A stretch of DNA of 64,000 bases from a virus: the IMG/VR virus record IMGVR_UViG_3300024999_000057, positions 1 through 64,000 of that record; one strand, given 5' to 3'. Position 1 is the stretch's first letter. Each line of letters opens with the position of its first letter. Under the pieces are notes generated by a model. That model saw nothing but the letters and a program-made list of their open reading frames with translations, had not been told where the DNA came from and searched no databases. This document shows, in pieces, positions 262-61,895 of the stretch. A program made the position numbers and the translations under genes.

Positions 262-627
262 ATGTACAAAATATCCAAAGGAGACCAATTCAATTCATGG
301 ACTGTCTTGTCCCAAGCACCAACAAGACCCAACAATATAAAGCACTGGCTCTGCCGTTGTACCTGCGGCACCACCAGGGAGGTCTCACAACACAACCTGA
401 TCCACAATAAGTCGAAGAACTGCGGCTGCTTCAGGGTGGTATCCGAGCACACCAGGAAGCTACTCTCAGAAGCTAACAAGGGAGTACCGAAAAGACCTAA
501 GGGTTATCAGCATTCTGAGGAAGCCAAGGCGAAGATGAAGGCGTCCCAGGTGGCTAGGAGGGAAAGAGAGCGTGTTGAAGCAGAACCACAGGTTTCCTCA
601 GGTAAAAATGCTTCGCACCTCTCCTGA
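262..627 (+). CDS. Homing-endonuclease-like DNA-binding protein without nuclease domain
   Basis: 121 aa. Residues 1-60 form the CxC...CGC zinc-ribbon-like domain found at the start of phage HNH and AP2 homing proteins (WLCRCTCG...NCGC); the HNH gene at 27504 starts with the same domain (WLCLCNCG...SCGC). The C-terminal part (SEEAKAKMKAS) resembles the NUMOD3 DNA-binding motif of intron-type endonucleases. No HNH or GIY-YIG catalytic motif is present, so this is either a remnant of a homing endonuclease or a DNA-binding protein derived from one. AAGGAGG lies about 10 bases before the ATG. The last codons overlap the left arm of an 18-bp inverted repeat. Confidence 0.7.
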   Translation: MYKISKGDQFNSWTVLSQAPTRPNNIKHWLCRCTCGTTREVSQHNLIHNKSKNCGCFRVVSEHTRKLLSEANKGVPKRPKGYQHSEEAKAKMKASQVARRERERVEAEPQVSSGKNASHLS

Positions 628-1476: not shown

Positions 1477-1490
1477 ATTCACATCCGAAT
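1477..1490. promoter_or_regulatory. ATTCA-N4-TGAAT site (1 mismatch)
   Basis: ATTCACATCCGAAT. It ends 8 bases before the -35 box of the 1499 promoter and pairs with the exact copy in the spacer of that promoter, giving a two-operator arrangement. Confidence 0.75.
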
Positions 1491-1498
1491 TTTTTCTC

Positions 1499-1527
1499 TT
1501 GACAAACATTCAGAAGTGAATTAAGAT
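1499..1527 (+). promoter_or_regulatory. Sigma70-like promoter with the palindrome filling its spacer
   Basis: TTGACA (1499-1504), a 17-base spacer, then TAAGAT (1522-1527). The spacer is three bases plus the complete palindrome ATTCAGAAGTGAAT (1508-1521), so a protein bound there would block RNA polymerase directly. The integrase promoter has the identical layout. It should transcribe the 1640-6842 gene set. Confidence 0.75.
1508..1521. promoter_or_regulatory. ATTCA-N4-TGAAT operator in promoter spacer
   Basis: Exact arms, ATTCAGAAGTGAAT, located between the -35 and -10 boxes of the 1499 promoter. Confidence 0.8.
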
Positions 1528-4301: not shown

Positions 4302-4537
4302 CCAAACAAAAGTTCTACGCAGTAGGCGCCCTGCACAAATCGGTGCTCGCTAGGATTAGTGGAGAGGAGCGTTCGATCCCACTCTCTTGGAGCGCCGGGA
4401 TGATCGGGATGATGCCTGTTTTCGATAACAGGCAAGCGGCTGAGGTGGAGGCGGGGGATAAGTTCGAGGTGGAGGAGTTTGGTGAGACGGATTCTTGCGT
4501 CATGATAAATTCAGATGTGAATTCAAAGGAGATTTAA
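4298..4537 (+). CDS. Hypothetical protein
   Basis: 79 aa, unrecognised. The residues NSDVNS at its very end are encoded by the palindrome ATTCAGATGTGAAT (4509-4522), which lies directly before the AAAGGAG of the next gene; the tail may therefore be dictated by the DNA site rather than by protein function. Confidence 0.6.
   Translation: MTKQKFYAVGALHKSVLARISGEERSIPLSWSAGMIGMMPVFDNRQAAEVEAGDKFEVEEFGETDSCVMINSDVNSKEI
4509..4522. promoter_or_regulatory. ATTCA-N4-TGAAT site
   Basis: ATTCAGATGTGAAT, exact, overlapping the end of the 4298 gene and ending 3 bases before the AAAGGAG of the 4538 gene. No promoter boxes fit around it, so here it is not a simple promoter operator. Confidence 0.8.
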
Positions 4538-4924
4538 ATGTCAAGTTTTACAAAGAAGGGCCTTTCGCTAAAAGAAGGCGACAAGGTGAAGTGGGATGGC
4601 CTCCCGTCAATCGTAGTTGCGGTAGCTGAGGAGGATGTGGAGTGCCCCTACAGGGTATTCAGTGAGAAGCATGAGATTTCTGGGTGGGTGAGTGGGGAGG
4701 TGCTTGTGTTGGTTGAAACGGCTAAGTATGAAGCGCCTGTGGTCGAGTTGCTGAAGGTCGGGGATTTTGTGGCGACTCCTGAGGGGAAGGGAGTTGTGCT
4801 GGAAGTGGATATATACGACGCAGGCCAGCCTTACCGCGTAGGTGTATTTAATTCCGGGGATGAGTGGCACTCAGAGAACGAAGTGACCCTCCTCGCCCGC
4901 CCTGACTACGGCATGGAGGTTTAA
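4538..4924 (+). CDS. Hypothetical protein, two KOW/SH3-like repeats
   Basis: 128 aa. Two similar beta-rich units: LKEGDKVKWDGLPSIVVAV (about 11-29) and LKVGDFVATPEGKGVVLEV (about 71-89), each followed by a YRV strand. This is the pattern of small SH3-like/KOW barrels. The next gene has the same unit twice (IGDKVRLKY and IGDLVNWNG), so the pair are tandem paralogues. Function unknown. Confidence 0.6.
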   Translation: MSSFTKKGLSLKEGDKVKWDGLPSIVVAVAEEDVECPYRVFSEKHEISGWVSGEVLVLVETAKYEAPVVELLKVGDFVATPEGKGVVLEVDIYDAGQPYRVGVFNSGDEWHSENEVTLLARPDYGMEV

Positions 4925-6899: not shown

Positions 6900-6930
6900 G
6901 CCCTTGGGTTCTCCCAAGGGCCTTCTTTTA
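6900..6930. terminator. Bidirectional intrinsic terminator
   Basis: GCCCTTGGG (6900-6908), 4-base loop, CCCAAGGGC (6913-6921), then a T-rich run rightward; leftward a T-rich run also follows. It separates the left rightward operon from the convergent integrase gene. Confidence 0.85.
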
Positions 6931-8166
6931 TTCAAATTGCTCCCCAAATTTATCAGCATCCTTCCTCTTTTGCTCCCGATCCACGAATGAGTACTTCCTG
7001 CTCATGTTAATATCGCTGTGATCGAGGAAATCTGCGGTCTTCCTGATGTCCTGCGTAGCTTGGTAGTAGAAGGTCCCGGCTGAGTGCTTGGTGTCGTGGA
7101 ATCGCTTGTCTTCGAGCCCTGCTTCCTTTTTGACCTTCTGGAAAATGTTGTCCCAGTAGGATCTGGAGATGGGCACGTCCTTAGTCTCGCCGCAGAAGAG
7201 CCAATGGCTTTCCTGCTCCTTCTTGGTTAGTCCCTCCAGGTAGGAATCCAGCAGGCTCCTAAGCCGAGGGATCATGTCCAAGTAATGCGTGTAGTCGCCC
7301 CGCTTCCTCTTGCTTGCTGGAATGGCTAGAAGGTTTTCTTGGAGGTTCAGGTACTCCTTTTTTAATGAGCAGATGGTTTTCCTTCTGAGCCCTCCGAACG
7401 CCCCAAATCCAATTATTAGTGAAGCCCTTTTATCTACGAACTCCGCAGCCTCAAATAGCCTCGTCAATTCCCCCACCGTGTAAAACTTATCCTCCCTAGA
7501 ATCGTTCTCAGGCCACGCAGAAACCGCTTGAAGCTGATTATATTCCAGGTACCGCGTGTTGTCTGGAGCTACGATTTTGGACTTCACGAAGCAGTTGATC
7601 ATGTTGATGAGGGTTGACCTGGCCCGGTTCACGGTCGAGTTGGAGTGCTTCAGTTCATCCCTGCAGTAGACCATGTAGGACTGGAGGTGCTGAGGCAGGA
7701 GGTCCGCTACATAAACTGGGAGTCGGTCTGCTAACTGGCGAGGGAGGGGCTTGTCTGACTTCCAACTGAAATCTCGGAAGAAGGGGGTCAGGTTGCAGTT
7801 CAACCGCTGGACGTAGAAGGCACGGGTGTCCTCATTGGAGAGGCCTTGGAGGTAGGCGGTGTAAAGCTCTGTGGCGCGATCCCAGGTGAGCTTTTCCTTC
7901 TTCTGGTTCAGCTTGAAGCGATCATCTACGATCTGGCCCAGGACTTGGTTGAGCCGGTCTTCCGCCTGTTTCTTGTGGACGCTGATTTGCTCCGCTATTT
8001 GCTTCCCCTCGAAGGAGTAGGAAATGCTCCAGAATTTATCAGCCTCGTTTGTGGTGCTCCCGCATTTTTTGCAGGGAGGCAGCTTCTTAGGAGGGTCTGC
8101 AAATCGCTTCCTAGCACCACACTCGTAGCAGCGGACCACCTTAAAAATCGAACCTTTTTCGCGCAT
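6928..8166 (-). CDS. int: Tyrosine-recombinase integrase
   Basis: 412 aa. Start at 8166 is chosen because AAGGAGGG lies 7 bases upstream; the frame is open 21 codons further. Order: N-terminal zinc ribbon (CYEC...CKKC, 13-35) with an arm-binding-type domain, SAM-like core-binding domain (about 95-205), catalytic domain. Catalytic residues: R261 (GGLRR), a Lys in the 286-289 hairpin, H357, H383 (LDHSDI) and Y392. Box II reads H-D-T-K-H instead of the usual H-x-x-R, so the second catalytic Arg appears to be Lys. Integrates or excises the genome at the adjacent tRNA-like site. Its promoter carries an operator copy in its spacer. Confidence 0.93.
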   Translation of the reverse strand: MREKGSIFKVVRCYECGARKRFADPPKKLPPCKKCGSTTNEADKFWSISYSFEGKQIAEQISVHKKQAEDRLNQVLGQIVDDRFKLNQKKEKLTWDRATELYTAYLQGLSNEDTRAFYVQRLNCNLTPFFRDFSWKSDKPLPRQLADRLPVYVADLLPQHLQSYMVYCRDELKHSNSTVNRARSTLINMINCFVKSKIVAPDNTRYLEYNQLQAVSAWPENDSREDKFYTVGELTRLFEAAEFVDKRASLIIGFGAFGGLRRKTICSLKKEYLNLQENLLAIPASKRKRGDYTHYLDMIPRLRSLLDSYLEGLTKKEQESHWLFCGETKDVPISRSYWDNIFQKVKKEAGLEDKRFHDTKHSAGTFYYQATQDIRKTADFLDHSDINMSRKYSFVDREQKRKDADKFGEQFE

Positions 8167-8187: not shown

Positions 8188-8216
8188 AATATAATTCAGA
8201 CGTGAATGGAAGTCAA
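8188..8216 (-). promoter_or_regulatory. Integrase promoter with palindrome in spacer
   Basis: Read leftward: TTGACT (8211-8216), three bases, the palindrome (8194-8207), then TATATT (8188-8193). Spacer is 17 bases. Layout is identical to the 1499 promoter. It lies 21 bases upstream of the integrase start codon. Confidence 0.8.
8194..8207. promoter_or_regulatory. ATTCA-N4-TGAAT operator of the integrase promoter
   Basis: ATTCAGACGTGAAT, exact arms, between the -35 and -10 boxes of the integrase promoter. Confidence 0.8.
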
Positions 8217-8484: not shown

Positions 8485-8498
8485 ATTCATTTGTGAAT
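8485..8498. promoter_or_regulatory. ATTCA-N4-TGAAT site
   Basis: ATTCATTTGTGAAT, exact arms; the only other copy with this centre is at 61882-61895. Located between two terminators. Confidence 0.75.
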
Positions 8499-9238: not shown

Positions 9239-9412
9239 CTACTCCTCGCCTTCGTAAGTAACAAGTTGGAAGCACCTGCGTGGATTCTTGATGCAGGCCA
9301 CTTCAGGCGATTCGGTTGAGCACTCGGAGTGCGACTTGCAGTAGAAGCAGCACGTTTTATTTTCCATGAATGGGTCGAAGGGACAGCACGAGGATTTGCA
9401 ACTTGCGATCAT
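9239..9412 (-). CDS. Small cysteine-rich protein
   Basis: 57 aa with nine cysteines, many paired (CKSSCC, CCFYC). GGAGGTG lies just before the ATG, and the ATG overlaps the stop of the 9409 gene (ATGA). Metal binding is likely; function unknown. Confidence 0.6.
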   Translation of the reverse strand: MIASCKSSCCPFDPFMENKTCCFYCKSHSECSTESPEVACIKNPRRCFQLVTYEGEE

Positions 9413-9591
9413 TCCCCACCTCCGTACAAATCTTTAGCCCACCCAGAGCCCTTCAGGATAAAAGTTGGTGAAGAGACGGCGCGGTGCATGAAATTACCAC
9501 AGGCGCACATTTGAAATCCCACGAAGCCGTAGGCTTCTCGGACCTCCCTTGTTTTACTGCATTTGCTACATTTGTACTCGTACAGAGGCAT
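9409..9591 (-). CDS. FmdB-family zinc-ribbon protein
   Basis: 60 aa. MPLYEYKCSKCSK, then MCACG, then SSPTFILKGSGWAKDLY are the signature segments of the FmdB family of putative regulatory proteins (normally about 60-110 aa). AGGAG precedes the ATG. First gene of a leftward operon (9591 to 8660) driven by the promoter at 9675-9703. FmdB-like proteins are believed to be zinc-binding regulators; the role in a phage is not known. Confidence 0.8.
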   Translation of the reverse strand: MPLYEYKCSKCSKTREVREAYGFVGFQMCACGNFMHRAVSSPTFILKGSGWAKDLYGGGE

Positions 9592-9606: not shown

Positions 9607-9620
9607 ATTCGGATATGAAT
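9607..9620. promoter_or_regulatory. ATTCA-N4-TGAAT site (1 mismatch)
   Basis: ATTCGGATATGAAT in the leader of the leftward operon, immediately before its ribosome binding site. Mirror-image position to the copy at 9796-9809 in the rightward leader. Confidence 0.7.
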
Positions 9621-9674
9621 TGTTCGGGTAAACGAAAGGCCCCGCTAAAGCCCTCGATACACCCTTTGATGAGG

Positions 9675-9703
9675 ATGTTACCTCAGGTCAGGCTCGGTGT
9701 CAA
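9675..9703 (-). promoter_or_regulatory. Leftward sigma70-like promoter
   Basis: Read leftward: TTGACA (9698-9703), 17-base spacer, TAACAT (9675-9680). It drives the FmdB-like operon and is divergent to the promoter at 9733-9760. The palindrome at 9710-9723 lies between the two -35 boxes. Confidence 0.7.
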
Positions 9704-9709
9704 GAAATA

Positions 9710-9723
9710 ATTCACATGTGAAT
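9710..9723. promoter_or_regulatory. Central ATTCA-N4-TGAAT operator of the divergent promoters
   Basis: ATTCACATGTGAAT, a perfect 14-bp palindrome including its centre, 6 bases from the leftward -35 and 9 bases from the rightward -35. Confidence 0.8.
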
Positions 9724-9732
9724 AAAAAACGC

Positions 9733-9760
9733 TTGACTTTTAATGAGAGTGTGGTATAAT
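9733..9760 (+). promoter_or_regulatory. Rightward sigma70-like promoter for the late region
   Basis: TTGACT (9733-9738), 16-base spacer, TATAAT (9755-9760). Perfect -10 box. It lies 62 bases before the start of the HTH gene at 9822 and so precedes the whole morphogenesis region. Confidence 0.8.
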
Positions 9761-9795
9761 TAAATTATTAATGAGGGAGAAGTATGCCCTCAACA

Positions 9796-9809
9796 ATTCA
9801 GATGTGAAT
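9796..9809. promoter_or_regulatory. ATTCA-N4-TGAAT site in rightward leader
   Basis: ATTCAGATGTGAAT, exact, in the 5' leader of the 9822 gene directly before its GGGAG. Confidence 0.8.
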
Positions 9810-9821
9810 GGGAGAAGAGAA

Positions 9822-10205
9822 ATGGTTAAAACGATTGGCCTGGACAAACTGAGGAAGGACAACAGCAACTTGTGGCGCATAGAGGGGGTGGGCCGCACAC
9901 TGATGGAGGAGTTGAAGAAGGTGAAGTTTAAAAAAGTCAAACCTAACCACATTGATGATCTGAGAAATTGGGTGGCAGTAACAGGGTACGGTGAGACGAA
10001 CCCTTACACAGAACTGGACAAGAAACTAGATTTGGAAAAGTTTGCAGACTCCCTTCCTGAGGAGTACCAGGAAATTTTCAATCTCTTCCTGGAGAATCTG
10101 ACTGTGCCTGAAATAAGTGTCGAATTGGGCATCCCGAAGCCTACGCTGTACTCGAAGCTGCGGTTCATAAATCAGTTGTACAAGGAATTTTACCTGGAGG
10201 AATAA
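9822..10205 (+). CDS. HTH regulator at the head of the late operon
   Basis: 127 aa. ATG at 9822 is preferred: GGGAG lies upstream and the palindrome would otherwise be translated (an in-frame ATG at 9771 exists). Residues 80-120 form an HTH (LTVPEISVELGIPKPTLYSK) like sigma region 4; the middle carries PEEYQEIFNLFLEN, as in sigma-like regulators. Paralogue of the 3153 protein. It overlaps the terminase small subunit start by one base. Likely roles: late transcription regulator or packaging accessory protein. Confidence 0.7.
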   Translation: MVKTIGLDKLRKDNSNLWRIEGVGRTLMEELKKVKFKKVKPNHIDDLRNWVAVTGYGETNPYTELDKKLDLEKFADSLPEEYQEIFNLFLENLTVPEISVELGIPKPTLYSKLRFINQLYKEFYLEE

Positions 10206-10726
10206 TGGAAGATCCAATAATTGGAACCAAATCAATTGTACCAAAAGACGCTGACGCTTTTGAACTAGCGGATTTCGAAACACCGCTTTCAACTTCAGCA
10301 GTACCTAATGTCATGTGGAGCATCGAGAAGCACAAAGTAGCTCAGATGATGGCTTTGTCAGGGTTATCCAAAGCTCAGATCAGCAGAGAAACCAAGGTTC
10401 CTATAGGAGCCATCAAGAAGTGGCAGGAAAGCTCGGAGTTCCGTGACTACGTAAACCAGTTGGTCCTCGAATCAGCAAATCTTATGAAGGCTACCCGCCT
10501 GCAGATCCTGACCAAAATCCTGAATGCCAGAATTGATGAAGCAGAAAAAACTGACGACTACGCTCGCCTCTCCAAAGCCGACACGGTGGACATCATCAAC
10601 GCGATCCGGAAAGAGACGGTCGAGGATGAGGAGAAGAAGGAGTCCAAGTATGTTCAGATCCTGGAGAAGATGGTGGAATTGACCCACCAGCCCAGGGTGG
10701 TATCTCTGCCTAACCAGCAAAATTGA
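10205..10726 (+). CDS. terS: Terminase small subunit
   Basis: 173 aa. HTH at about 57-85 (MMALSGLSKAQISRETKVPI, then GAIKKWQ) for recognition of packaging DNA, followed by long helices (LILTKILNARIDEAEKTDDY region) expected for ring assembly, and a short C-terminal segment. Size and position two genes before the large subunit fit. The first TTGATAC element begins at its stop codon. Confidence 0.75.
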   Translation: MEDPIIGTKSIVPKDADAFELADFETPLSTSAVPNVMWSIEKHKVAQMMALSGLSKAQISRETKVPIGAIKKWQESSEFRDYVNQLVLESANLMKATRLQILTKILNARIDEAEKTDDYARLSKADTVDIINAIRKETVEDEEKKESKYVQILEKMVELTHQPRVVSLPNQQN

Positions 10727-10753
10727 TACGTTTGGTATTTTTTTGGCCCTATA
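10723..10753 (+). promoter_or_regulatory. TTGATAC-N18-CCTATA element, copy A
   Basis: TTGATAC at 10723-10729 and CCTATA at 10748-10753. With copies at 15243 and 28034 it shares a TGG core and a T- or A-run between the boxes. Possible late promoter with unusual spacing. Confidence 0.5.
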
Positions 10754-10783
10754 AAGATATTGAGAACAAAATTCAATATCTTT
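10753..10783 (+). other. Hairpin before the 10798 gene
   Basis: AAAGATATTGA (10753-10763) pairs with TCAATATCTTT (10773-10783); flanking bases can extend the stem. It ends 14 bases before the ATG at 10798. Either a weak terminator or a translation control structure. Confidence 0.5.
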
Positions 10784-10797
10784 TATGGGGTCCTTAA

Positions 10798-11199
10798 ATG
10801 AATGCTTTTTTAGCCAAGATATTCGGCAACAGGCCTGGCGTCATTTTCAGGCTTTACATGGCAGCGGTGCTTTTTCAGTTTTCACTCCTAAGTTTCGCCT
10901 CAGTCGATTTGGCGGCAACGAATGATCTCTGCTTTGGTGCTTTCAACATGGTGCTGGATATCTCCTTCTGGCTCGGCGTGTTTTCATCGCTGGGCGCCTG
11001 TAGCTTGGCTTTTAGAAGCAAATACGTGAACTGGCCGCTAGGCATCCTACTCAGTGAATCAGCCGCAGTCCTCGCCTTCATCACCCTCAGCTATGACTAC
11101 TTGACCCGCAAGCCTCCGATCATCGCAGGTAGCGTTCTCTCCATAACCGCCGCTATTTTCCTGATTGGAGGCCTTATCTATGAGCGAAGAAATCCTTAA
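10798..11199 (+). CDS. Membrane protein, four transmembrane segments
   Basis: 133 aa. Hydrophobic segments at about 16-34, 48-68, 77-97 and 105-126, with a short basic C-terminus (YERRNP). No enzymatic motif. It is followed by an XhlA-like protein, so the two may form a holin-type pair separate from the lysis cassette at 44-46 kb; this rests on context only. Confidence 0.65.
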   Translation: MNAFLAKIFGNRPGVIFRLYMAAVLFQFSLLSFASVDLAATNDLCFGAFNMVLDISFWLGVFSSLGACSLAFRSKYVNWPLGILLSESAAVLAFITLSYDYLTRKPPIIAGSVLSITAAIFLIGGLIYERRNP

Positions 11200-11419
11200 T
11201 TACAAAATCGAGCAGCTTGTAGAGCGAGTAGAAAAGTTGGAGGAGCACCACGAAAGGTGTGCTCAGCCGGAAGAAGGAACTCTGGCTTTGATGAAGACTA
11301 GCTTGAAGGAGGACATAGGTAAGGTGGAGTCGAAGTTTAATTGGCTCATCACCTTGATTCTCACAACTGTGCTGGGTGCTTTAGTGACCATCTTTTTAAG
11401 TAAGATGGGGTTTAATTGA
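11180..11419 (+). CDS. XhlA-like coiled-coil/TM protein
   Basis: 79 aa. The ATG at 11180 is preferred (GGAGG 8 bases before). Residues 8-35 are a coiled coil (IEQLVERVEKLEEHHER) and 55-77 a single transmembrane segment near the C-terminus (ITLILTTVLGALVTIFL). This matches the layout of haemolysin XhlA-family proteins that act with holins. It overlaps the 10798 gene by 20 bases and its stop overlaps the HNH start. Confidence 0.65.
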   Translation: MSEEILNYKIEQLVERVEKLEEHHERCAQPEEGTLALMKTSLKEDIGKVESKFNWLITLILTTVLGALVTIFLSKMGFN

Positions 11420-12216
11420 TGATTGAGAAAACTTGTAGGACTTGTGGACATGTAGGGCCGGTGGAGGAGTTTATAAAGGGGTTGAATTGGTGCAAGAAAT
11501 GTAAAGCAGAATACTCCAAAACTTGGAAAAAGGCAGGAGGCAGTAACACAGAGATCAGGACGTGTAATTCGTGTGGTAAGACTGCCTCAGTAACTGAGTT
11601 TATCAATCACAGAAATACTTGCAAAATATGTGATAACAAACGCAACAATGAACGCAGGTACAGCGAAGATCCAAATAAAATAAAAATTTGTACAAAGTGC
11701 AACTATGAAGGTAAGGCCTCTGAATTTGAGCCCGGCAGGAATAGATGCAAGAAGTGCCTAAGTGACTACGGCAAAGTAGTCACCCCAAAGTGGAGGGCTA
11801 ATAATGCAGAACATGTTATGGCCTACGGTATCAGATACTACGAACAGAACAAAACAAGGCTGAGTGTTCAGAAGAAAAAGTGGGTCAAACTGAATATCGT
11901 TAAAGTGTATGCAAGCAACCGTAACAGGATAGCCCACCTTAAATCAGTACCAGGTCAGCACAGTGCGGAAGACATAGTATCTCTGCACACCCAGCAATTA
12001 GGTCTCTGCACTTATTGTAGGACGGAATTAGGTACTAACTACCACGTAGATCATATCATCCCCTTGAGTAGAGAAGGTTCGTCTAACTGGCCTTCCAATC
12101 TTCAGCTTTTATGCCCTCAATGTAATTGTTCTAAACACGACAAAAATCACGAGGAGTACTTAGAATACAGACGGTACAGAGGCCTCCCTGTGTTTGACAA
12201 TCAGGAGGCTGCATAA
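11419..12216 (+). CDS. HNH endonuclease with three zinc-ribbon repeats
   Basis: 265 aa; ATG at 11419 overlaps the preceding TGA. Three similar repeats of CxxC-x(15-17)-CxxC type at about 5-35, 45-75 and 88-118, then an HNH domain at about 190-240 (CTYC...YHVDHIIPLS...LQLLCPQCN). The zinc ribbons probably bind DNA. It lies directly before the terminase large subunit (TAATG overlap). HNH proteins next to terminase can assist packaging in HK97-like phages, but the zinc-ribbon layout resembles a homing enzyme such as the 15386 protein. Confidence 0.85.
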   Translation: MIEKTCRTCGHVGPVEEFIKGLNWCKKCKAEYSKTWKKAGGSNTEIRTCNSCGKTASVTEFINHRNTCKICDNKRNNERRYSEDPNKIKICTKCNYEGKASEFEPGRNRCKKCLSDYGKVVTPKWRANNAEHVMAYGIRYYEQNKTRLSVQKKKWVKLNIVKVYASNRNRIAHLKSVPGQHSAEDIVSLHTQQLGLCTYCRTELGTNYHVDHIIPLSREGSSNWPSNLQLLCPQCNCSKHDKNHEEYLEYRRYRGLPVFDNQEAA

Positions 12217-13817
12217 TGGAACTAAGAGCTAGACGCGGAGCCGGAAGGATCACCAAGAAGAAACCAGAGGTTGTGGAGTACTTCAGGTTCAAGGGCAGGC
12301 TAACCACCCCTGCCTTCATCGAAGTCTTGAACGACGCCGGAATACAGTTTGAACCGCATGACGGGCAGTGGCAGATAATTGATGCCTACGAAGAAAGGAT
12401 TCCGGCATCGGAATCTGTAATACAAATGGCACTTGAAAACGGCATCAATCTCGACTTTGAATATAAATATCGTGTAATTTCAGCTATTTGCGGTCGTCGT
12501 ATGGGCAAGAGCGTGATCGCGTCTGTACTTGGCGCTCAAGAAATGTTGGTGCCCAACGCCAGAGTTTTGATTGTTTCCTACACTTTTTCCAACTGCCAGG
12601 TCATCTACGACAACGTTAGAAAAATCATAGTAGATCTGCTCGGCAAGGACGAAATTGTAGCCGACAGACAGCAAGCAATGGAGTTGATCTTAAAAAATGG
12701 AGCCGAACTTAGGGTGGGCTCCAACGACTCTATCGACAGCCTTCTCGGAAAAGCTGTGTCATTACTGATAGTTGACGAGGCGAAGGTTTTCAAGGAGCAA
12801 ATTCTGGTCCGTGGGCTATTACCCATGCTACTCGACTACGCGCCCTTCAGTAGAACGGTCTTGATTTCTTCTCCAGAAAATAACTGGATAGAAGGCTGGT
12901 ACAAAAGAGGCCAGTCCGACGAGTATCCTCGGTACTGGTCCATCAACCTTCCGACCCACGCGAACCCCACAATTCCCCGAGAAGAACTTGACCAGATGAA
13001 GAAGGACCTCCCGCCTGAAATTTACGAACAAGAGGTTCTCGGGCTCTTCACCTCCAACGCAGGCCTAGTTTGCCGTGAGTTCACCAAGGAAAGAAACGTC
13101 TACAGGCCCGAAGATTACCCGTTCCTCTACGAGTGGCTTCATTCGGGAAATGTCATCATCAACATGATCGACTCAGGATATTCGCACTACTTTGCGTCGG
13201 TCTGGGTCATGTATGTCGAGGAGTTGGACACCTACTTCGCCTTCGCTGAGTATGCCAAGAATAAGACCCTGACTTCCGAACATGCCAGATACATCAACGA
13301 GTTCGAGGCCGAGAACGACATCCAGGTTGACATCCGGTTTGCCGACCCCGCCGCCAGTCAACAGTTAGCGGACTTCACGGAGTATGACCTCTACTTCAAC
13401 AAGGCTGCGAAGGTATTAAGAGAAACCATCAATAATCTCAATACTCTTTTCTTCCAGACTAGCGAGATCACAGGCAAGCCTCGGCTCCTAGTGAGTACTG
13501 AATGCCCCGAACTGATCAGGCAACTTTCCTCGGTCATCTGGAAAACTGGCAAAGACGACGAGCAGACCAAAGAACAGTCAGCTCAAGGCACCAAGCCGTT
13601 CACTCCAGACAAGGAAGGTCCTGTAGGAGGCGGAAACAAGACTGACTGGGACCTCTTCGACGCCTTTCGTTATGGCCTCTTTTCATTCATCAAAAATAAC
13701 CGGGTTGACGCAACGGTAATCACAACTGAAACCGGGAACCAACGAGACGCCTCCGAAGATGAATTCGACGAGATGCTATACTCACGGGGATGGTTCAGGT
13801 TCAGTGACTCCGTTTAA
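12216..13817 (+). CDS. terL: Terminase large subunit
   Basis: 533 aa. ATPase domain with Walker A CGRRMGKSV (92-100) and Walker B LLIVDEAK (183-190); RNase H-like nuclease with candidate metal ligands D319 (NMIDSG), D377 (RFADPA) and the Asp residues of TDWDLFDAF near 495. Translocates DNA into the prohead and cleaves concatemers with TerS. Full length for the family. It is separated from terS by two membrane genes and an HNH gene, which is unusual. Confidence 0.95.
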   Translation: MELRARRGAGRITKKKPEVVEYFRFKGRLTTPAFIEVLNDAGIQFEPHDGQWQIIDAYEERIPASESVIQMALENGINLDFEYKYRVISAICGRRMGKSVIASVLGAQEMLVPNARVLIVSYTFSNCQVIYDNVRKIIVDLLGKDEIVADRQQAMELILKNGAELRVGSNDSIDSLLGKAVSLLIVDEAKVFKEQILVRGLLPMLLDYAPFSRTVLISSPENNWIEGWYKRGQSDEYPRYWSINLPTHANPTIPREELDQMKKDLPPEIYEQEVLGLFTSNAGLVCREFTKERNVYRPEDYPFLYEWLHSGNVIINMIDSGYSHYFASVWVMYVEELDTYFAFAEYAKNKTLTSEHARYINEFEAENDIQVDIRFADPAASQQLADFTEYDLYFNKAAKVLRETINNLNTLFFQTSEITGKPRLLVSTECPELIRQLSSVIWKTGKDDEQTKEQSAQGTKPFTPDKEGPVGGGNKTDWDLFDAFRYGLFSFIKNNRVDATVITTETGNQRDASEDEFDEMLYSRGWFRFSDSV

Positions 13818-15214: not shown

Positions 15215-15228
15215 ATTCATATGTGAAT
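15215..15228. promoter_or_regulatory. ATTCA-N4-TGAAT site
   Basis: ATTCATATGTGAAT, perfect palindrome, 3 bases after the portal stop and 14 bases before TTGATAC element B. Confidence 0.8.
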
Positions 15229-18523: not shown

Positions 18524-18537
18524 ATTCAGATGTGAAT
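18524..18537. promoter_or_regulatory. ATTCA-N4-TGAAT site before capsid terminator
   Basis: ATTCAGATGTGAAT, 5 bases after the capsid stop; the terminator stem starts 1 base after it. Confidence 0.85.
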
Positions 18538-22330: not shown

Positions 22331-22344
22331 ATTCAGATGTGAAT
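22331..22344. promoter_or_regulatory. ATTCA-N4-TGAAT site before tail-tube terminator
   Basis: ATTCAGATGTGAAT, 24 bases after the tube gene stop and 9 bases before the terminator stem. Confidence 0.85.
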
Positions 22345-39255: not shown

Positions 39256-39269
39256 ATTCAGATGTGAAT
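39256..39269. promoter_or_regulatory. ATTCA-N4-TGAAT site
   Basis: ATTCAGATGTGAAT, exact, between the 39098 stop and the GGAGGAG of the 39286 gene. Confidence 0.8.
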
Positions 39270-39285: not shown

Positions 39286-39618
39286 ATGAACCACAACGAC
39301 ACAATTGAGCAGGGCGCCACTTTCTATCGAGAGGTGGTCCTCTACACGGACATAAGCAAAACCACACCGATCAACCTCACTGACAAGACTCCCAGAGCCT
39401 CCCTCATGACTCAGAATGGCCTGCACGTGGCAGATTTCGGGTGCGCTGTTTTGGCTGCGTTAGAAGGCAAGATCGCTTGGACCATGCCTCGTGCTACCAC
39501 AGCCTCACTAGAGCCTAGGCAGTACCTCTACAATTTGGATCTTGACGACGCTGACGATATCACCACCGACCGGGCTTTGTCTGGGCAGATCACGGTGAAG
39601 ACCGGGCAGGTGCTTTAA
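39286..39618 (+). CDS. Hypothetical tail-associated protein
   Basis: 110 aa. Begins with a segment (TIEQGATFYREVVLYTD) followed by DKTPRASLMTQNG and a C-terminal LSGQITVKTG strand, a pattern common to small phage structural proteins encoded near fibres. GGAGGAG precedes the ATG; TAATG overlap with the next gene. Confidence 0.65.
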   Translation: MNHNDTIEQGATFYREVVLYTDISKTTPINLTDKTPRASLMTQNGLHVADFGCAVLAALEGKIAWTMPRATTASLEPRQYLYNLDLDDADDITTDRALSGQITVKTGQVL

Positions 39619-44003: not shown

Positions 44004-44017
44004 ATTCAGATGTGAAT
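44004..44017. promoter_or_regulatory. ATTCA-N4-TGAAT site before terminator
   Basis: ATTCAGATGTGAAT, 4 bases after the 43565 gene stop; terminator stem starts 2 bases later. Confidence 0.85.
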
Positions 44018-51215: not shown

Positions 51216-52216
51216 TTGTCCCACCTCCACAATTTGGATTTGTTGTAGTCGAATTTGCCCTGTGTGAACCCGATGGTCGCGAATCCGCGCACCCATTTCA
51301 GCCCGGTGGCTCTGTTGTTCAGGTAGTAAGGCTGGTCCATGCACGAGCAACCCGTTTCGATGTACGTTGCACCCATGCTGTCGTAGGAGCCAAGCTGGTG
51401 TGAGTGCCCGATCACAAAGGCGTTGAAGTCGATCCCCTGCTTAGATATGGCCCCTGCAGCACCAATTCCGGTCCTCATCGGGACTACCGTGAAGCGGGAC
51501 GGGTGGGCGAAAATGGTGTCCTTAACCTTGAGCCACCAGTTGTGGGCGTAGTGTACGTTCTCAAAGTGCTCCGACACGTTAGCCAGCAGATCGGCCTTGA
51601 TTAGGAACTTCATGCACTCGTATTGCAGGTTCCGCTGACAATAGCGCTCTACAACGTCATCGTGATTACCTCGTACAAGAAGCACTTGCTCGAAGTTGCT
51701 GCTGAACCACTGGATCATTTTCACGAGTTGCCCGTACTCGATCTCAGGATCTACGTGGACATTTTTGGCGTGCTTGGAGAAGAAGTCGCCGTGCGTGATA
51801 TCTCCGTTGAGTACCACAACCTTCACGCCGCGCTTCTGAGCCTCACGAACCGCAAACGTGATCATCTCGGTGTTGGCATAAGGGATCTCAATGTCAGAGA
51901 GCACCAGAATTTCAAACGTCTGGTACTTGCTGAGAATGTTGTCGATTTCCTCTTGGAACTGCTGGGCGCGGATGATGTTTCCGTACAACTTATCCTCGTT
52001 GAGGTAGTCGTCCGTCAGCACTAGCGCGTCTGCACTGTTAATTTTTGAAGCCTCGTACAAGCGCTTAGCTTCCTCCCAACTCCCGAAAACCCTCATGTAT
52101 GGAGCTTCGGTCACGTTGAACTCGGACCGCATCTGCCTTCTGGTGGGAATTGCTCCGTGTCTGTCCTCGTACTGCTGGATCAGATCCAGAAGATACTCTT
52201 TCGTGTAACTACTCAA
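51212..52216 (-). CDS. Calcineurin-like phosphoesterase with homing-associated N-terminal repeat
   Basis: 334 aa, TTG start with AGGAG 6 bases before. Residues 1-60 (PTRRQMRSEFNVTEAPYMRV, FGSWEEAKRLYEA) resemble the homing-endonuclease-associated repeat (HNH_repeat type). Residues 95-330 carry the phosphoesterase motifs SDIEIPY, NGDITHGD, RGNHDD, AHPSR and GHSHQ. Metal-dependent phosphodiesterase or phosphatase, acting on DNA or nucleotides. It lies in the replication/recombination block. Confidence 0.85.
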   Translation of the reverse strand: MSSYTKEYLLDLIQQYEDRHGAIPTRRQMRSEFNVTEAPYMRVFGSWEEAKRLYEASKINSADALVLTDDYLNEDKLYGNIIRAQQFQEEIDNILSKYQTFEILVLSDIEIPYANTEMITFAVREAQKRGVKVVVLNGDITHGDFFSKHAKNVHVDPEIEYGQLVKMIQWFSSNFEQVLLVRGNHDDVVERYCQRNLQYECMKFLIKADLLANVSEHFENVHYAHNWWLKVKDTIFAHPSRFTVVPMRTGIGAAGAISKQGIDFNAFVIGHSHQLGSYDSMGATYIETGCSCMDQPYYLNNRATGLKWVRGFATIGFTQGKFDYNKSKLWRWDK

Positions 52217-52224
52217 TTTGGCTC

Positions 52225-52650
52225 CTATTCAGATGTGAATTCATCTGGGCGAAATTCAGAAATAATAAGTTCCGCCCTTGGGTTTTCCTTGTCGATTCCG
52301 CCGAACTTGTACTCGATCTCCGGGATGAACGTGTAGTTATCGTCCTCCAGGAGCTTCAGTTCAATCAGCGCGTCATCTGCGAATTTCTGTACCACCGCTC
52401 CGATGTTTGCCAGATCGAACAGTCGCTTCGTCGAGTAGAAAATCGTGTAGGTGAATTTGTACGGAGGCTTGCCTAGCTTGCCCTCAGCCTTCTCGACTGC
52501 CTTCGCTACGATTTCCTTGTACAAGATCTTCAGCGCGTTGCTCTCGTGGTGCTGCCAGTTGCGGTAATTATTTAGTCCGAGCGAATACTTCTTCCCTGGC
52601 TTCGTCTTCCTTGGGATGGTCACCGTTAGTGGTAATATCAGTTGATACAT
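52225..52650 (-). CDS. RusA-like Holliday junction resolvase
   Basis: 141 aa. Core TKRLFDLANIGAVVQKFADD followed by LIELKLLEDDNY and a final GGIDKENPRAELIISE fit RusA-type resolvases, where the Asp residues bind Mg2+. Dimeric branch-junction resolvase needed to process recombining DNA before packaging. The HNH gene overlaps its first 83 bases. Confidence 0.75.
   Translation of the reverse strand: MYQLILPLTVTIPRKTKPGKKYSLGLNNYRNWQHHESNALKILYKEIVAKAVEKAEGKLGKPPYKFTYTIFYSTKRLFDLANIGAVVQKFADDALIELKLLEDDNYTFIPEIEYKFGGIDKENPRAELIISEFRPDEFTSE
52227..52240. promoter_or_regulatory. ATTCA-N4-TGAAT site at the end of the RusA-like gene
   Basis: ATTCAGATGTGAAT on the top strand, overlapping the last codons of the leftward 52225 gene and lying just upstream of the 52216 start. 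Confidence 0.8.
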
Positions 52651-53146
52651 ACTTGTACGCCTTGCCCAGCTTGATTCTACTAATTGTGGTTTGGGTTACC
52701 CCAAATTGTTTAGCTAGATCCCTGCCGGTTCCGTTGATGGAGAAATCTGATTTTTTAATTATCAGCACTTGCTCCAAGGTTAGTTTGGTGTTGAAGTTTC
52801 TCTCGCCGGTAGCACTCCTATTTCTAGTAACTCTGTCGTTCACGTTGTCTTGAGTTGTCCCTATTAGAAGATGTTCGGGGTTAACACAAAGAGGGTTGTC
52901 GCACGTATGCCTAACAACTTTGCCCGTAGGATCTTCACCCTTCAGAAAAATAACGGATAGTCTGTGTGCAAGCCTGTATTTTCCCCAAAGTTTGTAGAAT
53001 CCATACCCGTTACTATTAATTGTCCCTCTCCACCGCCAGCATTCATCCGGCCCTCTTTGCTCGATCAACGTCTTGAATTTTTCTACAGTGTTACTTGGTC
53101 GCCCTACTTGCCCTCCAGGGTTCCTAATTCTCTTCGCTATCCTCAT
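52568..53146 (-). CDS. HNH homing endonuclease
   Basis: 192 aa. The 53146 ATG follows the RBS-like AAAGGAG too closely; another start is possible and the frame is open to 53236. WRWRGTINSNGYGFYKLWGK, AHRLSVIFL and HTCDNPLCVNPEHL-GTTQDN form the classic phage HNH core; a C-terminal HTH (GRDLAKQFGVTQTTISRI) follows. It overlaps the ends of the upstream gene and the start of the RusA-like gene, a sign of recent insertion. Confidence 0.85.
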   Translation of the reverse strand: MRIAKRIRNPGGQVGRPSNTVEKFKTLIEQRGPDECWRWRGTINSNGYGFYKLWGKYRLAHRLSVIFLKGEDPTGKVVRHTCDNPLCVNPEHLLIGTTQDNVNDRVTRNRSATGERNFNTKLTLEQVLIIKKSDFSINGTGRDLAKQFGVTQTTISRIKLGKAYKYVSTDITTNGDHPKEDEAREEVFARTK

Positions 53147-54659
53147 CTCCTTTAATTTCCACTGGCAGAAATCGCCAGCATCCGTCTTCTCTCGCTTCGA
53201 TCCGGTGCCCCTTGTATTTATAAGGCACCATCTCAAGCATTTCAGGTTCCCACGACGATTTCCGCCGTTTCTTGCTCATCACACCCTTGGCTACGATCCA
53301 GTTCCCAACTCCATTGTGCTCAAAATAATACTTCATGTTTTTGTCGCAGATCGCACAGATCCCGGCGCCATGTGAAGGAGCATTTGTGCCCCCACAAAGG
53401 GTGCATTTTTCCAGCCGGGTGTGTTTTCCATGCAGCCTGTATCTTCGCCAAGGGGCCTTGTCCCAGAGGATCTTCCTACCAACACCGATCTTGGTCCCGC
53501 CTACTTTCAAGTAGAGGAATTCCAAGAGCTTGCCTTTCGCCGGCTTGATGTTGTTCAGGAGAGCGTTGTCCCTTCCCGCGAAGCTGAAAGCTACTCGGAA
53601 GAGATCCCCGTTGAACCAAACTAAAAACCCTTTGGCGTTCCCGCCTACGTGCCAGAATCGTTCTACGATTCCCACGGTCACCCTGACCTCAACCACATGA
53701 GATTCCCCGGTTCTGGCGGTATCCTGGTCGGTCAGCGTGAGGTACTCGCAATCCGAGTGCTCCATGACCTTGACGACTTCGCCCAAAACTTCCTCTTCCC
53801 GAAATGCGAGGCCCACATAATTGGGCGTGATCTGTGTCAAGAGGTTGTTGTCTTGAAACCTGCGCAGCTTCTCTACTCGCTCGGGAAACGGGGTCGTGGG
53901 CTTGCCATTGAGGGTCAAGGCAAACTCCTTCAGATTGTCGAAGTAATCGACTGGGTGAAACACGGTCCTTCCTGAATTCAACCGCCCCGCGTACCCCGTC
54001 AGGGTAAATCGTGGAGTTCCGATGTACTGCATATCCACGGGAAGTAATGGCTTAATTCCAACTAATTTTCCTGCTTCACACTCAAATGACCTAGTTGATC
54101 TGGGCTCCTTGGAAACCACCCCCAGCCTCATGTCGGGGGCCATAACAGCGGAGATGGCGACCGGGTAGTTCAACGCGGCGAAGCTTGTCTGGAGGGCCTC
54201 AGGTGCCTTATAAATTTCGAAGGTGTTAACCACACCAAGGTCGAGCGAGGTCTGAATCTCCATGACGGGCAATCCTTTGGTAAAACTTTTTGAAACTAGC
54301 GAGAGGTAAAACTCGCGGTCGATCCTGCTGGTCTTCGCTAGAAATCGAATTAACTCTGACTCCCTCGTGCGAGTCACAGTTTTCCGGTTGAAGAACCTGA
54401 CGACTTCCAGAAATCCACCGAATGATGCCTCAGAAATTTCTAGTTCCGGGACTGAGTGGTACCTGGAGTCGTCGATGGCCTTGAACCGAAAATTCAACAT
54501 GCAGAACCAGCAGGCGAAAGTGAGGAGCCATTCGGATTCCTCTGGAAGCTTCAGAACCCCCTCAGCGAATTGCCTCCGTTTTTCCTTAGGTGACCTGAGT
54601 TCAACCAAGGAATTCCTGAAGTTCAAAACTTCTTCGATGTTGGAAAGTTCGATTTTCAT
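53124..54659 (-). CDS. Unknown protein, ligase-like N-terminal half
   Basis: 511 aa. Residues 60-150 (GFLEVVRFFNRKTVT, then DREFYLSLVSKSFTKGLPVM) resemble the DNA-binding domain of ATP-dependent DNA ligases; later segments RFTLTGYAGRLNSG and FHPVDYFDN sit where ligase nucleotidyl motifs would lie. No KxDG active-site motif is seen. A zinc pair (CTLCG...CAICDKN) lies near 425-445. It could be a divergent or inactive ligase in the gp46-like recombination operon. 4-base overlap with the SbcC-like gene. Confidence 0.5.
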   Translation of the reverse strand: MKIELSNIEEVLNFRNSLVELRSPKEKRRQFAEGVLKLPEESEWLLTFACWFCMLNFRFKAIDDSRYHSVPELEISEASFGGFLEVVRFFNRKTVTRTRESELIRFLAKTSRIDREFYLSLVSKSFTKGLPVMEIQTSLDLGVVNTFEIYKAPEALQTSFAALNYPVAISAVMAPDMRLGVVSKEPRSTRSFECEAGKLVGIKPLLPVDMQYIGTPRFTLTGYAGRLNSGRTVFHPVDYFDNLKEFALTLNGKPTTPFPERVEKLRRFQDNNLLTQITPNYVGLAFREEEVLGEVVKVMEHSDCEYLTLTDQDTARTGESHVVEVRVTVGIVERFWHVGGNAKGFLVWFNGDLFRVAFSFAGRDNALLNNIKPAKGKLLEFLYLKVGGTKIGVGRKILWDKAPWRRYRLHGKHTRLEKCTLCGGTNAPSHGAGICAICDKNMKYYFEHNGVGNWIVAKGVMSKKRRKSSWEPEMLEMVPYKYKGHRIEAREDGCWRFLPVEIKGDEDSEEN

Positions 54660-61881: not shown

Positions 61882-61895
61882 ATTCATTTGTGAAT
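61882..61895. promoter_or_regulatory. ATTCA-N4-TGAAT site
   Basis: ATTCATTTGTGAAT, exact arms, in the leader of the 60896 gene between the upstream terminator and the gene. Confidence 0.75.

Follow-up and report, generated by a model that had tools for sequence, protein, structure and literature searches.

A dispersed 14-bp palindrome at promoters and ribosome binding sites suggests genome-wide self-silencing in a putatively temperate phage

Two divergent promoters and three copies of a palindrome lie at positions 9607-9809 of the analysed stretch. This stretch, from here on the window, comprises positions 1-64,000 of the virus record IMGVR_UViG_3300024999_000057, which has a full length of 102,669 bases (102.7 kb). 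Both promoters are sigma70-like, were read directly in the sequence and are kept in relatives. The leftward promoter (9675-9703, minus strand), TTGACA (9703-9698)-17-TAACAT (9680-9675), has 10 of 12 consensus matches. The rightward promoter (9733-9760, plus strand), TTGACT (9733-9738)-16-TATAAT (9755-9760), has 11 of 12, and an extended -10 TG is present. Between the two -35 boxes, at distances of 6 and 9 bp, lies a perfect palindrome, ATTCACATGTGAAT (9710-9723), which is shared by both promoters. A further copy is located in each leader. On the left, ATTCGGATATGAAT (9607-9620, minus strand) abuts the Shine-Dalgarno sequence of the gene that opens the leftward operon, an FmdB-like zinc ribbon (9409-9591, minus strand; PHROG 1076, E 0.0025), 15 nt from its ATG. 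On the right, ATTCAGATGTGAAT (9796-9809, plus strand) abuts the ribosome binding site of the first gene of the rightward operon (9822-10205, plus strand), 12 nt from its ATG. By domain and profile match, this gene encodes a sigma70 region-4-like helix-turn-helix (HTH). The structural region starts behind it on the plus strand (10205-13817), from the terminase small subunit (10205-10726) to the large subunit (12216-13817), and the whole terminase, portal and capsid region lies downstream of the rightward promoter. A conserved hairpin, TGAGGG...CCCTCA (9768-9792), opens the rightward transcript directly before the leader operator. The first rightward gene differs in its N-terminus (9822-9850) among the relatives L009, L012 and L015, and the leader upstream of 9822, with its promoter and operators, is near-constant despite this.

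The relatives used for comparison come from the same metagenome series, have terminases 71-100% identical to that of this phage, and all carry the motif. In three of them, all three sites, both promoters and their order are preserved, and both -35 and both -10 boxes are still recognisable. The left leader site is identical in these three relatives, and the right one is also identical in relatives. The six-base core of the central site varies across the phage and its relatives (ACATGT, ACATAT, ATATCT, ACATCT), with the outer ATTC and GAAT fixed. The original prediction had described this arrangement from a first reading of the DNA: promoters back to back, a perfect palindrome between their -35 boxes, and one copy in each leader just before the ribosome binding sites. 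All of these features were found again. All three copies are present, but the left one is not exact, being a three-mismatch variant of the central copy; its sequence is the same in every relative. The mirror-image layout that had been proposed is only approximate, as the start-to-start spacings are unequal, with 103 and 86 bp in this phage and 104/79, 105/79 and 103/79 bp in the relatives. The approximate symmetry arises because the leader sites are anchored to Shine-Dalgarno sequences.

Copies of this 14-mer occur throughout the record. Allowing up to three mismatches, it has 23 matches in the window, as compared with 2.8 ± 1.7 in shuffled sequences. Across the record, sites within two mismatches number 35, versus 0 for a reversed control. 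ATTC-N6-GAAT occurs 41 times in the 102.7 kb, and the same half-sites with spacers of 2-5 or 7-13 bases give 0-4 copies. The outer ATTC and GAAT of the 41 sites are fixed by the search pattern itself; 37 of the 41 also fit ATTCR-N4-YGAAT. The commonest cores are AGATGT, ACATCT, ACTTCT and AGAAGT. Asymmetric cores were found in both gene-sense orientations, with no fixed orientation relative to the genes. Noncoding DNA makes up 8.6% of the positions, and 29 of the 37 good sites lie wholly within it; a few sites fall inside genes. Off-pattern copies, such as those at 75766 and 82667, are not conserved and look like chance occurrences.

Conservation follows the palindrome rather than its surroundings. 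An 82.5-kb relative has 32 motif copies, and 28 sites are orthologous. At these sites, the outer eight bases were changed at 3 of 224 positions (1.3%) and the six core bases at 9 of 168, as compared with 138 of 1054 (13%) for the flanking 40 bases. This is a tenfold difference between outer bases and flanks (p = 3e-9), in a comparison that slightly favours the motif, since the window sites were picked by motif match. Searches via helicase or portal, and a nucleotide search of annotated phages, found no more distant phage relatives.

The sites occur in two contexts. The first is at promoters: a site lies no more than 30 bp from eight of 15 intergenic near-consensus promoters, in one of two recurrent registers, and some such promoters have none. 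In the spacer register, the 14-mer fills the space between -35 and -10 and abuts the -10 (sites 1508, 8194, 96774 and, weaker, 64395). In the upstream register, 6-9 bp separate its end from the -35 (1477, 9710 for either promoter, 64425, 64530 and 92828). Upstream and spacer sites can be paired 30-31 bp apart, about three helical turns. One such pair, conserved and 31 bp apart (1477-1527, plus strand), sits on the promoter TTGACA (1499)-17-TAAGAT (1527), with one site (1477-1490) upstream of the -35 and the other (1508-1521) filling the spacer. The conserved integrase promoter, TTGACT-17-TATATT (8188-8216, minus strand), holds the operator 8194-8207 in its spacer, abutting the -10.

The second context is the leader. 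Fourteen sites lie 8-18 nt before a start codon, versus 0.6 expected and 2.4 for random placement in noncoding DNA. All 14 are at 10-16 nt and touch or nearly touch the Shine-Dalgarno sequence. They are often inside operons, and most have no nearby promoter. Examples are 4509-4522 (plus strand), within an operon and 15 nt before the ATG at 4538; 39256-39269 (plus strand), 16 nt before the ATG at 39286; and 52227-52240 (minus strand), 10 nt ahead of the gene start at 52216 and extending into the end of the gene upstream. Other copies are dispersed between genes: ATTCATTTGTGAAT at 8485-8498 and again at 61882-61895 (minus strand), ATTCATATGTGAAT just past the portal gene (15215-15228, plus strand), one just past the capsid gene (18524-18537, plus strand), and those at 22331-22344 and 44004-44017 (both plus strand). 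The copies at 18524, 22331 and 61882 are kept in relatives.

The presence of an integrase gene suggests that the phage is temperate. This tyrosine integrase (6928-8166, minus strand; Pfam Phage_integrase, E 1.1e-20) is 91% identical in a relative and is the single tyrosine recombinase seen in the record, where it is annotated as integrase. Among 84,980 bacterial species genomes, a search with the terminase and the integrase revealed no close prophage. For the terminase large subunit, T5-like phages are distant relations (26-29%), odd company for an integrase-bearing phage. Genes for HNH homing-type endonucleases are scattered over the genome (window 262-627, 11416-12216 and 52571-53236; L005:5650-6192).

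From the sites, their contexts, their conservation and a predicted MarR fold, we infer that the palindromes are probably the binding sites of one dimeric protein with which a temperate phage silences itself genome-wide, a MarR-fold protein being the likeliest binder. The promoters bearing operators are near consensus, and therefore would need shutting off rather than activation, which points to repression. A dimer bound in the spacer would exclude the polymerase, and one just upstream of the -35 would probably hinder polymerase loading, either by itself or together with another bound dimer; initiation would be blocked in both cases. A site upstream of the -35 is not the textbook position of a repressor, and this counts against repression. 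The leader sites, many of them inside operons, could act by analogy with the "stoperators" of mycobacteriophage L5, as roadblocks to polymerase that leaks past the promoters. At 9607-9809, one shared upstream site would guard both promoters, and one leader site would back up each of them. The first reading had set the FmdB-like operon against the late region. Control of a small leftward operon against the terminase, portal and capsid genes is supported, as is a type of site shared by both arms. That this site recurs at the promoters on either side suggests joint silencing of the leftward operon and the structural region rather than opposition between them.

The most likely binder, judged from sequence, is a 118-aa MarR-like protein of the phage (record 89853-90209, minus strand; L006:6557-6910). 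It carries the MarR winged-helix signature (Pfam MarR_2, E 1.2e-8, above the curated cut-off; PHROG 9665, E 3e-20), and the phage also encodes a 116-aa paralogue assigned to the same PHROG. The predicted model (pLDDT 80) shows a complete MarR fold, in which dimerisation helices at both termini surround the winged helix, and its best PDB matches are MepR, MarR, MexR and SlyA (probability 1.00, TM about 0.6). Two sites 18 bp apart, with off-consensus cores, lie in the intergenic leader of this gene. They are unchanged in a relative while the neighbouring DNA has diverged, as expected for autoregulation. Upstream of the paralogue, the promoter of the operon (record 90717-90689, TTGACA-17-TATTCT) is near-consensus, conserved and free of sites. 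The protein would thus be made from an operator-free promoter and tuned by the two leader sites. The off-consensus cores of these two sites speak against this binder, as does the 14-bp length of the palindrome, which is slightly below the usual 16-20 bp of MarR sites (PMC10458429). Distant homologues adjoin the integrases of the temperate T7-like phages LUZ100 and RHph_I20, and MarR-based control of lysogeny has been proposed for them (PMC10134795). The co-occurrence of motif and MarR gene in the relatives does not discriminate between binders, because all relatives are close and from one environment.

Other features were observed elsewhere in the record. The RtcB ligase (record 87764-89776, minus strand; L006:4468-6477) is interrupted from Cys71-Leu onwards by an insert of some 300 residues, with intein-like motifs and the ending ...FITGNC, which is absent from the RtcB of a relative. 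Two conserved, operator-free rightward promoters are found in a leftward region (record 97049-97200 and 98066-98220; L006:13750-13901 and L006:14767-14921). Downstream of each lies one of two related non-coding stretches with TTATACCCCTAGTA...GGGTAGGG in common, possibly paralogous phage small RNAs. The second stretch folds strongly (z -2.9, and -6.2 in the relative, L021:4995-5095) and had no match in Rfam. An Imm5-like protein (record 101445-102125, minus strand; L006:18149-18826) has long YAARAAAYAA-type repeats.

The same DNA operators could have a different binder, which we regard as rather unlikely. Further conserved DNA-binding proteins of the phage are a 51-aa ribbon-helix-helix protein, a 130-aa double-HTH protein and the MarR paralogue. 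The ribbon-helix-helix protein, the paralogue, or a host regulator such as LexA could occupy the sites. The ribbon-helix-helix gene has a leader site and is 94% conserved, but it belongs to an operon with a lytic transglycosylase and is not beside the integration genes. For a host regulator, about 40 sites would be unusual. Scanning DNA with the spacer-type site as a pattern retrieved mainly unrelated prophages, probably of Acinetobacter, with CI/Cro switches; the scan for the leader-type site had no matches. In those prophages (L026-L064, e.g. L032:3520-4569), a CI/Cro pair is accompanied by clustered ATTCA-N4-TGAAT sites, in the same promoter register. Such lambda-type operators share with ours both the consensus and the position abutting the -10 in the spacer. 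Since XRE-type CI/Cro pairs use this consensus in other prophages, the site sequence does not identify the repressor family, and the XRE repressors there have apparently converged on this operator sequence. However, those prophages have a few sites, clustered at one CI/Cro region and served by XRE repressors, and a genome-wide spread was not seen among them. In our phage, the sites are dispersed, with no XRE gene beside clustered operators. Searched over its full length with HTH_3 and HTH_19, the record yielded no CI-type XRE repressor; the only match, a weak one to HTH_3, belongs to an HNH endonuclease and was rejected as a candidate.

Genome-wide silencing by a MarR-fold dimer has also to be weighed against the switch that was first proposed for 9607-9809, in which looping or cooperation among the three copies would select either the leftward operon or the late region. 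The conserved order of three sites bracketing two divergent promoters would suit such a unit, yet we consider it improbable. The site occurs about 40 times and mostly elsewhere in the record, and leader copies are a genome-wide habit, present also before ribosome binding sites for which no promoter was found; a special role for the three-copy layout is not supported. Furthermore, the right-hand spacing of 86 bp is 79 bp in the relatives. With this 7-bp offset, 0.67 of a turn, the right arm does not keep its helical phase while the sites are kept, which argues against looping with a fixed geometry.

Reading the palindrome as a phage promoter element or an activator site, for a phage sigma-like factor or for activation, is very unlikely. 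Two phage proteins with sigma region-4-like HTHs, and sites just upstream of a -35, would fit, but only 10-16 nt separate the leader copies from the start codon, too few for a promoter of that gene, the promoter copies are on sigma70 promoters that are already near consensus, and the spacer copies would block the polymerase. Hardly any credence can be given to an RNA hairpin controlling translation or mRNA stability from the leaders, since its position directly 5' of Shine-Dalgarno sequences and a possible 5-bp stem are set against several copies that lie upstream of promoters or in spacers and so are not transcribed from them, a stability of only -0.5 to -1.5 kcal/mol (0 kcal/mol for the conserved leftward leader, where an A-C mismatch persists in the RNA sense), and a loop that is not fixed in the gene sense.

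Repressor sites that are scattered over a genome and stop elongation have been established chiefly in cluster A mycobacteriophages such as L5. These have more than 20 sites genome-wide, mostly in short gaps between genes and in part in promoters (PMC9283540, PMC6550527). As in L5, the repressor-type sites of our phage are dispersed over the genome of an integrase-carrying phage, in promoters and short intergenic gaps. A further parallel is the site upstream of the repressor's own gene, for which autoregulation was proposed in cluster A (PMC9283540, PMC6550527). In contrast, the sites of L5 are 13-mers without symmetry that follow the direction of transcription and bind a monomer, the L5/TipsytheTRex-type repressor with an HTH and a stoperator domain. 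Those described here are symmetric 14-mers without fixed orientation, and their candidate binder has a MarR fold.

Other known systems resemble ours in part. The repeated element of SPbeta, recognised by the repressor MrpR (YopR), is a 15-bp motif in promoter regions, and its repressor has a tyrosine-recombinase fold devoid of catalytic residues; leader sites inside operons, as found here, are not described in the part of the source available to us. In LUZ100 and RHph_I20, the integrase is adjoined by a small MarR homologue (about 30-35% identity) with a proposed role in lysogeny (PMC10134795). Unlike our phage, both have their own RNA polymerase, and a de novo palindrome search found no dispersed palindrome network in either. 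The palindromes obtained de novo in these two phages and in a Limnohabitans phage, which all have MarR homologues, were rejected as cognate operators, as they were either repeats with conserved asymmetric flanks like promoters of phage polymerases or too few in comparison with shuffles. T1-like phages (TLS, T1, Stevie) have about 20 intergenic repeats before genes, which their authors compared with stoperators (PMC11447400, PMC4319613). Unlike the sites of our phage, these are 21-22 bp long, asymmetric and oriented, and belong to virulent phages; their function is unknown.

Going beyond silencing itself, it is conceivable, and proposed here tentatively, that temperate phages with T5-related terminases have evolved a stoperator-like system independently, with about 40 symmetric 14-bp operators and a MarR-fold dimer. 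This dimer would block both initiation and elongation, the latter at the many sites before ribosome binding sites inside operons. If true, a role would be found for the MarR-like proteins that recur, without proven operators, in integrase-carrying T7-like phages. In addition, symmetric sites and another repressor fold would put to the test whether roadblocking needs oriented sites and a two-domain monomer, or whether a plain dimer is enough.
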